Source: Paenibacillus sp. OK003 | GTDB taxonomy: Bacteria > Bacillota > Bacilli > Paenibacillales > Paenibacillaceae | DNA length: 64,000 bases | Assembly (NCBI RefSeq): GCF_900109515.1 | Contig: NZ_FOBD01000020.1 | Coordinates: forward strand, 1-64,000 | Direction of reading: 5' to 3' | Shown here: positions 26,251-57,950 of the stretch, piece after piece | How the letters are laid out: each line of letters opens with the position of its first letter | How positions within the stretch are numbered: position 1 is the stretch's first letter | Notes under the pieces: model-generated | Told to the model about the DNA's origin: nothing | Databases searched by the model: none | What the model saw: the letters and a program-made list of their open reading frames with translations, nothing else | Position numbers and translations under genes: made by a program

Positions 26251-26808
26251 TTACGCGCGGGAAGAGTATTTACCTTCACGAGTATCGATCAGCAGAACAT
26301 CGCCTTCGTTGATGAACAATGGCACTTGTACGTTCAAGCCTGTTTCCACTTTTGCGTTTTTAGTAGCGCCTTGTGCCGTGTTACCTTTTACGCTTGGCTC
26401 TGTCTCGATCACTTTCAACTCTACGCTTGTAGGCAGGTCGATTCCGAGGATTTCACCTTGGTAGCTAACAATTTTTACGTTCATGTTTTCTTTGAGGAAG
26501 TTCAATTCCCATTCCAACTGATCACTTGTCAGTGTGAACTGATCATATGTTTCGTTGTCCATGAATGTGTGCTCTGTACCACTAGCATACAGGTAGGATA
26601 CGCCACGGTTTTCGATGATGGCACGGCCAATGGTTTCACCTGCACGGAATGTTTTCTCTACGGTGTTACCGTTGCGCAGGTTTTTCAGTTTGGAACGAAC
26701 GAAGGCAGCACCTTTACCTGGTTTAACATGTTGGAAATCAAGTACGGTATAGATGTCGTTGTCTACTTGTACGGTCAAGCCTGTTTTAAAATCGTTTACT
26801 GAAATCAC
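26251..26808 (-). CDS. efp: Elongation factor P
   Basis: EF-P rescues ribosomes stalled at polyproline stretches. The 185-residue protein has the three-domain layout: an N-terminal KOW-like domain with the loop KPGKGAAF, in which Lys32 is at the usual modified position, then two OB domains ending with [17 protein letters not shown]. The length matches B. subtilis exactly. It follows pepP, as in Bacillus, but with the long-hairpin element inserted between them. Confidence 0.97.
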
Positions 26809-26841
26809 AAAAAATCCCTCCTGATATGGTTGAAAAGTAGG

Positions 26842-27090
26842 TGATATAAGACGATGGGTTAATTTAAGTTGAACAAGTCAAACCGTCATATTACACAGAC
26901 CACTACGATGGCAGAACAACCTTTCGATCGCTGTTATCCCCAGATTTCTTTTAATCCCTATCCTAATAGGGAGAAATCCGGGGATAAAGGCGAGCGCTTC
27001 GCTTCTTCAGGTTTTTTCTGCCCTCTCCGTTATTGTGTAATTCCATGTTTACTTCATTCAAAAGCATAAATTAAAAATCGTCTTATATCA
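26842..27090. repeat. Long-hairpin intergenic element, copy 1
   Basis: Outer arms TGATATAAGACGAT (26842-26855) and ATCGTCTTATATCA (27077-27090) are perfect 14-bp inverted repeats. Inside them pair TTAATTTA/TAAATTAA, TTGAA/TTCAA, TTACAC/GTGTAA (26891-26896, 27035-27040) and GGCAGAA/TTCTGCC. A core stem pairs TTATCCCCAGATTTCT with AGAAATCCGGGGATAA, with one mismatch. The terminal loop pairs CCCTAT/ATAGGG. A relative lies at 57623-57802. It fills the gap between pepP and efp. Whether it is a MITE-like DNA element or a transcribed structure is not known. Confidence 0.75.
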
Positions 27091-27104
27091 TCGTTGGCTG
27101 TAAT

Positions 27105-28178
27105 TTAGCCGATTACGGTGAACTTCTTGTCCGAATTCGTCAAAATGTGAATACCTGTCTCGGTAATCACCACGTCATCCTCGATACGCACGCCGCCAAG
27201 GCCGTCAATGTAGATACCCGGTTCAACGGTTACCACCATGCCCGGTTTCAATACATCGTCGCTAAGCTTGGACAAACGAGGAGCCTCATGGACTTCCATA
27301 CCCAGACCGTGGCCTGTGCTGTGTCCGAATTGCTCTCCGTATCCGTGCCCTGCAATGATATCACGTGCCAATGCATCTGCTTCCCGTCCGGTCATGCCCG
27401 GTTTCAGGTTCGCCAGCGTATGTAACTGGGCTTCCAGTACGATATCGTAAATTTTACGCAGTTCAGGTACAGGTGTGCCTGTTGCGATGGTACGTGTCAG
27501 ATCTGAACAGTATCCATCCAAAAGCGCACCAAAGTCAAATGTAATTAACTCATTTTGTCCGATGACTTTGCCGCTTGCTACACCGTGAGGCATAGCAGAA
27601 CGTTCACCCGATGCCACAATGGTGTCGAACGAAGAGGAGGTTGCTCCATGTTTGCGCATGAAAAACTCCATCTCCAAATCCACTTCACGTTCAGTCATAC
27701 CCGGTTTTGCGAATTGCAAAACGTGACTGAATGTTGCATCTGCCAGATCCGCAGCTTTTTGCATTACAGCGATCTCATCTTCGTCCTTGAACATGCGAAG
27801 TTGCTCCACTATGCCGGATACAGCCTTCAATTCAATCGACTGAAGCGCTTCAGCATATGCAGTATGCGTACCATAGGTGACATGATCCTGCTCAAAGCCA
27901 ACCTGTTTGATGTTTGCCGATGCAAGCAATTCGCGTACGGATTCCAACGGTTTTGGTCCATGTTCCACAACGGTAAATCCTTTGGCTTGTTGCGGAGCTT
28001 GTGTCATGTAACGGAAATCGGTAAGCAGATAAGCTTCTTGTTCCGTAATCAGCACATATCCTGCTGAGCCTGTAAAACCCGTCATATAACGACGGTTAAT
28101 CGGATTTGTAATCAGCATAGCCGTGAGTTCATGTTTCTGCATGGCATCACGTAACTTATTTACTCGTTTGTTTTCCAT
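27105..28178 (-). CDS. Xaa-Pro peptidase, M24 family (YqhT-like)
   Basis: This metallopeptidase removes N-terminal residues next to proline. The 357-residue protein has an N-terminal creatinase-like domain (1-130) and the C-terminal pita-bread domain. Metal ligands are seen in TFDFGALLDGYCSDLTRT (two Asp), GHSTGHGLGMEVHEAP (His), VTVEPGIY (Glu) and GVRIEDDVVIT (Glu). AAGGG precedes the ATG. The aroQ-pepP-efp order is that of B. subtilis. Confidence 0.94.
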   Translation of the reverse strand: MENKRVNKLRDAMQKHELTAMLITNPINRRYMTGFTGSAGYVLITEQEAYLLTDFRYMTQAPQQAKGFTVVEHGPKPLESVRELLASANIKQVGFEQDHVTYGTHTAYAEALQSIELKAVSGIVEQLRMFKDEDEIAVMQKAADLADATFSHVLQFAKPGMTEREVDLEMEFFMRKHGATSSSFDTIVASGERSAMPHGVASGKVIGQNELITFDFGALLDGYCSDLTRTIATGTPVPELRKIYDIVLEAQLHTLANLKPGMTGREADALARDIIAGHGYGEQFGHSTGHGLGMEVHEAPRLSKLSDDVLKPGMVVTVEPGIYIDGLGGVRIEDDVVITETGIHILTNSDKKFTVIG

Positions 28179-57511: not shown

Positions 57512-57531
57512 TCACCTGTGCTGTGTCATGG

Positions 57532-57898
57532 TGAACCCTGAACTATTCACACTTATCCACTGCGCGGGCAGAACAACTTCCGATCGCTGTTCAAATCCGA
57601 TTTCCCGAATTGAACAATATAATTTGAACGAAAGGATATGTACACTAGCCACTCCGAGGATAGAACAACCTTCCGATCGCTGTTACCCCCAGATTTTGTT
57701 GATTCCCTTTATAAAAGGTAAAATCCGGGGATAAAGGCGAGCGCTATCGCTTCTTCAGGTTTTTTCTCTCCTCTCCGTTATCGTGTACATGTATGGTTCA
57801 AACTATATAGCATAGAAGGTTGAAATCGTGCTTGAAGCAAACGCTTCGCTTCTTCCGTTTTTTCTGCCCTCTCCGTTATGGTGTGACTACTTGGTTCA
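57532..57898. repeat. Outer long-hairpin element, apparently split
   Basis: TGAAC (57532-57536) pairs with GTTCA (57894-57898), TCACA (57547-57551) with TGTGA (57882-57886), and GGGCAGAA (57566-57573) with TTCTGCCC near 57861-57871. The left half continues with CAACTTCCGATCGCTGTT, and the right half has ACGCTTCGCTTCTTC before TTCTGCCC. Both match the respective ends of copy 1. The central stem is replaced by a whole second element. Confidence 0.6.
57623..57802. repeat. Inner long-hairpin element, copy 2
   Basis: Outer arms TTTGAAC/GTTCAAA (57623-57629, 57796-57802) and ATGTACAC/GTGTACAT (57638-57645, 57783-57790) are perfect. The core stem TTACCCCCAGATTTT pairs with AAAATCCGGGGATAA with two mismatches, both of which become G-U in minus-strand RNA. 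The terminal loop pairs CCTTT/AAAGG where copy 1 has CCCTAT/ATAGGG. The segment GGCGAGCGC-TTCGCTTCTTCAGG-like also matches copy 1. Confidence 0.75.
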
Positions 57899-57950
57899 AA
57901 AAGTAACATCACGAATTCCGTGTAACCTTTTACAGGAAAGACGGCAATCG

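Follow-up and report, generated by a model that had tools for sequence, protein, structure and literature searches.

We describe a candidate structured RNA of about 150 nucleotides that probably travels on two or more kinds of mobile element and would act in cis in the messenger RNA (mRNA) of its host. It was recognised in a 64,000-nucleotide stretch of the Paenibacillus sp. OK003 genome (contig NZ_FOBD01000020.1, positions 1 to 64,000; hereafter the window), where one copy occupies the gap between efp and an Xaa-Pro peptidase-like gene, called pepP in an earlier note made from the sequence of this DNA. In this genome the RNA would form the core of a non-autonomous inverted-repeat element inserting at TA, often at C-TA-G, and in other genera it also lies inside an insertion sequence (IS) of the IS1182 family. 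Copies would land between genes and read in the sense of the host operon, with selection retaining the fold of the core RNA. The observations behind this reading are insertion at TA, a covarying structure, strand-specific wobble in the core, a sense bias in this genome, spread across genomes, and carriage by an IS.

A near-palindrome between efp and pepP

The efp-pepP gap holds a 249-base near-palindrome (26842-27090). The earlier note had claimed that the gap folds nearly end to end, and its outermost arms (26842-26855 with 27077-27090; 14 base pairs (bp), perfect), inner pairs and core stem were all confirmed. The predicted fold of this copy (copy 1) reaches -95.6 kcal/mol on the minus strand (z -9.4) and -87.5 kcal/mol on the plus strand (z -10.4), values equalled by 0 of 200 shuffles in each case. 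What the note had missed is that the recurrent unit is the inner part of the palindrome. Here, inner terminal arms lie at 26859-26889 (TTAATTTAAGTTGAAC..., interpreted as a divergent version of the family end TATAAGTTGAAC) and at 27042-27074, and the structured-RNA core (26890-27041, minus strand) is a full-length match to covariance model R1 (164 bits; see below). Pairs of 8 bp join 26859-26866 with 27067-27074 and 26890-26897 with 27034-27041. The core stem and apical hairpin (26925-26996, minus strand) contain a conserved minus-strand G-U pair, the arms of the stem (26925-26949 and 26972-26996) being 84% paired, and a conserved junction at 26996-27010 reads, on the minus strand, CTGAAGAAG and then the mini-hairpin GCGNAGC.

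A relative noted earlier at 57623-57802 proved to be real, with a profile match bounding a complete copy and its terminal arms at 57617-57809 (copy 2, minus strand). Its core (57639-57789, minus strand) scores 160 bits with the covariance model, and its fold has z -5.0 on the minus and -2.7 on the plus strand. Copy 2 is inserted within an older copy, which had also been overlooked; the 3′ half of the older copy lies at 57529-57603 and its 5′ half at 57815-57904 (both minus strand), and relatives such as locus L220 have the older copy without copy 2 inside.

A multi-copy family inserted at TA

Of 107 short copies, 59 with identities below 92% were selected to build model R1; RNAalifold on the 107 copies gave a partial structure only, and a G-U-free consensus fold was used instead. 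A covariance search for more copies, proposed earlier as a check that could have gone against the element, returned 128 rows, or 125 distinct places in this genome after removal of three opposite-strand re-hits (150 of 2877 first-look candidates scored; a few places are partial). Two matches fall in the window. A DNA search of the same genome gave at least 41 matches (40 of 138 candidates scored). The elements have the features of a miniature inverted-repeat transposable element (MITE), being short (~190 or ~227 bp), non-coding, present at 125 places and bounded by terminal inverted repeats (TIRs).

On the minus strand, the short class (~190 bp) starts with C-TA-TATAAGTTGAACTAAACATTTACAC, enters the core with a purine-rich internal loop CGGAG/CGGAG, continues through CTGAAGAAGCGNAGCG.TCGCC, TTTATC, a stem and the apical hairpin, and closes with GATAACAGCGATCGGAAG, CGGAGTGG, GTGTAAA and then ...TTTAGTTGAACTTATA-TA-G. 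The junction of the long class (37 of 144 full copies) contains, in addition, a hairpin AGCTTTCTGAAAGAAAGCT together with CATCGGAAGCATA. There are several sub-families per genome, with arms that are widely different yet still pairing and some with other ends.

Two clean comparisons of filled and empty sites revealed a target-site duplication of TA, which the earlier note had suggested looking for. Between the empty locus L120 and the filled L054 (and L068, the same site; 91.7% identity), GGT-TA-GAACTC becomes GGT-TA-(TATAGGTTC...GAACTTATA)-TA-GAACTC; the empty site reads GGTTAGAACTC, and the filled form has the element between two TAs. Between L335 (filled) and L095 (empty, 89%), insertion is at the TA in GTTATACAG, with the right end one base short. 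The other filled and empty pairs compared were too diverged or had an unclear junction. The consensus ends of 174 copies are C (54% of 122)-TA-TATAAG ... CTTATA-TA-G (53% of 116), and the target is of the IS630 type, TA with CTAG preferred; a CTAG preference is typical of IS630. At L335 (1658-1973) a T-box leader (E 3e-13, below the Rfam gathering score) immediately precedes the element and hisS follows, which puts a regulator on one side of the element and the regulated gene on the other.

At the efp-pepP site, a query spanning the filled form is matched in full by 31 of 60 genomes of the genus, and in 6 the two flanks lie near each other. Among 40 site sequences, 31 are filled, 5 are empty and one (L212) has a small hairpin only; the remaining three, which are distant (L217-L219), have no element and unclear flanks. 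The cores of the filled sites fall into three subtypes: the window type in 5, type B in 18 and type C in 8. The order of these subtypes (L150-L179, L216) does not track overall similarity to the window. The outermost arms are preserved in most of the 31, with clear changes in L179 and L216. That one orthologous site holds three subtypes might be due to replacement of one copy by another or to conversion between copies. The small hairpin in the gap of L212 (genome G029), GATATGAATTATTTCATATC, may be a relic or a pre-insertion palindrome.

An end-pattern search of the genome gave 40 matches, and among the 30 inspected no parent transposon with these ends was recognised; TIR matches with little or no core (L236, L242, L246, L247) did not reveal one either. 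A phage or plasmid carrier was rejected, the searches returning no phage record and one plasmid record (P. cellulosilyticus, 71%). Copies are present in 7 stretches of 6 IMG/VR contigs (L031-L037), and the downstream proteins of the wider set include three with tail-sheath matches, which together place prophage regions among the hosts.

Covariation in the fold

The earlier note had argued, from arms that change in sequence and still pair, for selection on the structure, and a larger sample bears this out. In a plain MAFFT alignment of 59 rows (A2), 92.6% of cells were paired, with 46 double-change cells compared with 12.5 after shuffling and at most 28 after sliding. Alignment A3, comprising 89 matches from 76 loci of this genome with most long-class loci left out, was aligned to the model and gave 475 double-change cells (116.5 shuffled, at most 80 slid), with double changes in 44 of 49 pairs. 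A4, drawn from low-copy genomes of other genera (33 matches at 29 loci, three of the matches on the opposite strand), gave 414 (117.1 shuffled, at most 96 slid) and 143 further pair types over the 49 pairs. A3 and A4 were fitted to the structure and are hence biased towards it; covariation exceeded the shuffled and slid controls in A2 as well as in both of these.

The model does not include the mini-hairpin XCGNAGX as a pair, but the final base of the motif takes part in a model pair. Counted as copies rather than independent events, the 181 that fit the anchor pattern have closing pairs G-C (160), A-T (18), G-T (2), T-C (1) and A-C (0), while independence would predict 18 G-T and 16 A-C. The unpaired junction motifs are conserved in other genera.

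Strand-specific wobble in the core

Wobble was counted in 107 short copies, with the orthologues of both window sites left out and the pairs chosen without G-U. Scored by parsimony from Watson-Crick pairs, on copies whose recombination weakens any tree, the core showed 57 events to G-U versus 11 to A-C on the efp-direction strand, and 51 versus 10 when its most variable pair was removed. The outer arms, which serve as an internal control, showed 104 versus 100 and no strand preference; they behave like DNA inverted repeats. The earlier note had read the core mismatches as G-U in minus-strand RNA, and the conserved mismatch is indeed G-U on that strand in 98 of 107 copies.

Greater conservation of one arm was rejected as a source of the G-U excess, both arms showing the trend separately: the rates per site were C>T 2.27, A>G 1.10, G>A 0.17 and T>C 0.62 in the left arm of the core, and C>T 2.83, A>G 0.50, G>A 0.18 and T>C 0.30 in the right arm. 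A strand mutation bias was likewise rejected, G>A in unpaired core columns (64 events, ~14 G columns) being not rarer than C>T (6 events, ~3 C columns). Taken together, these core data indicate that selection acts on the efp-direction strand in its folded state, as RNA or possibly as single-stranded DNA.

Orientation relative to host genes

Gene context was read at 115 of the 125 places, those with a locus sequence, the other 10 having none. Three of the 115 lie inside open reading frames (ORFs); the remainder are in co-directional (73), divergent (21) or convergent (14) gaps or at locus ends (4), against a background of 432 co-directional, 140 divergent and 123 convergent ORF gaps. Only the co-directional class is informative; of its 73 copies, 67 read in sense and 6 in antisense. 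An earlier set of 144 copies (21 orthologue rows removed) gave 66 sense and 11 antisense, including 46 and 8 from other genomes or contigs. The bias is alike across thirds of the score (22:3, 22:0, 23:3). Orientation by replication alone was rejected, concordance with the leading strand being 48 of 70 versus 67:6 for gene sense.

Terminator-like sites were found in the forward direction in 2 of 112 copies and in reverse in 18; among the 67 sense co-directional copies, such a site lies upstream in 7 and downstream in 2. From these low numbers we infer that copies are probably co-transcribed with their neighbours. The earlier suggestion of a transcribed structure in the efp direction is supported, with qualifications: the wobble of the core (57:11, against 104:100 in the outer arms) and the sense orientation (67:6) speak for it; the outer arms show no strand preference, and the apical stem has an A-C excess described below. 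In other genera, copies lie between atpA-atpG, gatA-gatB, rplI-dnaB and pcrA-ligA, and before mnmE and rph.

An IS1182-family insertion sequence as a carrier in other genera

At two low-copy loci (L352, L357) a transposase reads away from the RNA, and a third (L356) was found by tblastn. A search of 17 genomes with the N-terminal piece of this transposase gave 11 places in 6 genomes; in 9 of the 11 (4 of the 6 genomes) the RNA lies 39-75 nucleotides from the matched piece, antisense to it, with the RNA core between the IS end and the transposase. The nine RNA-bearing places (four in genome G356, three in G439, one each in G408 and G375) include the three loci that prompted the search. In G356, loci L377, L382 and L384 share a unit of ~1966 bases, with ends GGGGCTGTCCCAAAAG/CTTTTGGGACAGCCCC, in different flanks. 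Its protein scores 451 bits as an IS1182-family transposase, above the cut-off of 270. In this arrangement the RNA travels as part of an IS1182-family IS in three other genera, where it may be either a passenger or a component of the IS.

Two IS1182-type copies stand next to hairpins: L377:1198-3181 is flanked by short palindromes and L384 lies within another copy of the RNA, as if hairpins were targets.

Spread across genomes

Matches were found in 95 of 118 genomes and 13 of 19 genera of the Paenibacillaceae. Of 299 genomes drawn from the class, 27 had a match, all of them Paenibacillaceae and 16 of the same genus, while the non-matching genomes listed (20 of 272) all belong to other families; stricter filters were used in that draw. 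Sixteen low-copy genomes have 2 to 5 matches each. A pattern scan gave at least 112 loci, and all among the matches listed were named Paenibacillus. In Rfam 15 the window had no match at the gathering score, and no match covered the elements up to E = 5 (7 loci) or E = 1 (10 loci). The candidate is a strongly covarying RNA, judged from its alignments, with over 100 copies in this genome and a presence in most of the Paenibacillaceae sampled, and it matches no Rfam 15 family in the searches made.

Possible action and alternative explanations

On this reading the RNA would have a cis effect on its own host mRNA: most likely it would be recognised as a site for processing or stability, or it would keep the insertion from being polar, and either action would account for the tolerance of sense copies within operons. 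We rank processing or stability and anti-polarity first and a role in transposition next. A wider proposal, which we put forward tentatively and regard as somewhat doubtful, is that the RNA represents a new transposon-borne class, shared by TA-ended palindromes and IS1182-family IS, that acts on the nascent transcript (through RNA polymerase, Rho, the ribosome or a dedicated protein) or in transposition, letting the elements settle in essential operons.

Several results weigh against a cis-acting RNA carried by two kinds of mobile element. The apical stem shows 31 G-U versus 53 A-C events, and 8 versus 52 in a further count; the A-C excess recurs in three counts, which suggests that this stem is unconstrained or that the mutational spectrum is skewed there. 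Helix 3 of A3 is balanced (26 versus 25), with 20 of its A-C cells coming from one pair, and single-stranded DNA likewise accommodates G-T better than A-C. The sense bias is independent of arm integrity and as strong in the most intact copies (39:1), and may therefore arise at insertion. Concordance with the leading strand is itself 48 of 70 (seven genomes, ten best copies each, origin assumed), and the gene calls are simple longest-ORF calls. At 30 loci of the low-copy genera, 18 copies are co-directional, 12 sense versus 6 antisense (9:5 without copies overlapping a called ORF, as 8 of 30 do), with two of the antisense copies at leuA-ilvC; a strong bias is thus seen only in this genome and its close group. 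Of 124 candidate downstream proteins, 104 remained once orthologues and two others had been removed; they matched 117 Pfam families, each found in at most 3 of them, and have no common function. As to the carriers, related IS copies in this genome (L379, with a stop) and in G039 (L381) have the same end without the RNA, so that the IS1182-family carrier seen in other genera does not extend to L379. The IS ends (GGGGCTGTCCC) are unlike the TA ends of the window element, and IS630-type domains were not found in this genome (DDE_3, present in 6 of 25 genus genomes; HTH_33, in 1 of 9).

Some of these results would be expected of a plain mobile palindrome of DNA, in which hairpin-templated repair keeps the arms complementary, the RNA has no role and the sense bias comes from insertion into transcribed DNA. 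The TA duplication, the inverted ends, the lack of a G-U preference in the outer arms and apical stem, and a sense bias that is not weaker in intact copies all fit this explanation. It is nevertheless unlikely, given the excess of G-U over A-C in the core (57:11, on both arms), the G-U pair conserved in 98 of 107 copies and the unpaired junction motifs conserved in other genera. If instead the functional fold were that of one strand of single-stranded DNA, recognised by a recombinase or transposase, the wobble asymmetry would fit equally, as would carriage of the RNA inside an IS and the mini-hairpin with its GNA loop; GNA loops are very stable in DNA. The TA duplication points to double-strand insertion, however, and orientation follows genes (67:6) more than replication (48 of 70), which makes this a quite improbable account.

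The sense bias could also reflect tolerance only, antisense copies being lost because they terminate transcription or destabilise operon mRNA, and the sense RNA itself being of no use to the host gene. This is a serious possibility, though not one we favour: terminator-like sites are indeed rarer forward than in reverse (2 versus 18 of 112), but 94 of 112 copies have no reverse site, and tolerance leaves the conserved junction motifs and the selection on the fold unexplained. A gene-specific, riboswitch-like leader regulator would suit the conserved core and the 5′ leader or intercistronic positions, yet the scatter of the 104 downstream proteins over 117 Pfam families, with at most 3 proteins to a family, disfavours it, and copies lie beside unrelated housekeeping genes and inside IS; we consider it very improbable.

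If the cis-acting RNA is real, the annotation of many mRNAs and operons would change, here those of efp and hisS and in other genera those of atpA-atpG and gatA-gatB. It would also provide a tractable case of mobile elements with a folded-RNA payload, borne on a palindrome as well as on an insertion sequence, in which the wobble test separates RNA-level from DNA-level constraint inside one element.

Comparison with known systems

By analogy, the element would behave as do bacterial MITEs such as RUP, BOX, ERIC, Correia and bcr. In Streptococcus pneumoniae, the available part of one study describes BOX, RUP and SPRITE as short interspersed palindromes, some transcribed with operons, without a clear link to gene function; BOX is modular, 60.8-63.3% of copies are on the leading strand, and the repeats are over-represented between convergent genes (PMC3049150). 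RUP, in the portion of a review that was available, has 108 copies, a TA target and ends like those of IS630-Spn1, its likely mover, TA ends being common (PMC2229807). The element described here is likewise short, interspersed, palindromic and without a clear link to gene function; unlike those repeats as they are described there, it is 67:6 sense in co-directional gaps, has no convergent excess and shows strand-specific wobble.

The Bacillus cereus group repeats bcr1-bcr18 are interspersed, often in untranslated regions and operon gaps; according to the accessible text, bcr1-3 are MITE-like, and bcr10 and bcr18 have a conserved RNA structure (PMC3446304). Compared by description, MITE-like and RNA-like repeats are separate families there, whereas both traits occur here in one element. 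ERIC and Correia (NEMIS) are palindromic and act in mRNA via RNase E or RNase III, ERIC in an orientation-dependent manner (PMC2229807, PMC10969869, as far as available). They belong to other lineages, and no invariant junction core is described for them in those excerpts.

Structured RNAs in the non-coding ends of IS include the IS110 bridge RNA and the IscB/TnpB-linked RNAs, and the RNA of L377 resembles them in position. It differs in that the transposase is a DDE enzyme of IS1182 type from which the RNA reads away, some IS copies are without the RNA, and most RNA copies are not in an IS. We found no report of this element in searches that covered part of the open-access literature, and the word "repeat" does not occur in the available part of an RNA-seq study of P. 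riograndensis (PMC5670726).

Further features of the window and family

In the sense of the RNA, the peptidase-like gene (27105-28178, minus strand) lies upstream of copy 1 and efp (26251-26808, minus strand) downstream. No promoter-like or terminator-like site was found at 26780-27150 of the window, and L006 has a single promoter-like site, outside the element and below the shuffle mean in number; scans of these two sequences thus ruled out a promoter or terminator of the element's own. The piece GGGGATAACAG (26925-26945, minus strand) may resemble a conserved part of 23S ribosomal RNA, presumably by chance. In L230:361-507, L305:2010-2093 and L314:2030-2113 the inner core is lost and the outer part retained, as in internal deletions of a palindrome. 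Finally, L371 holds two oppositely oriented copies (1089-1240 and 1501-1654) within 600 bases.
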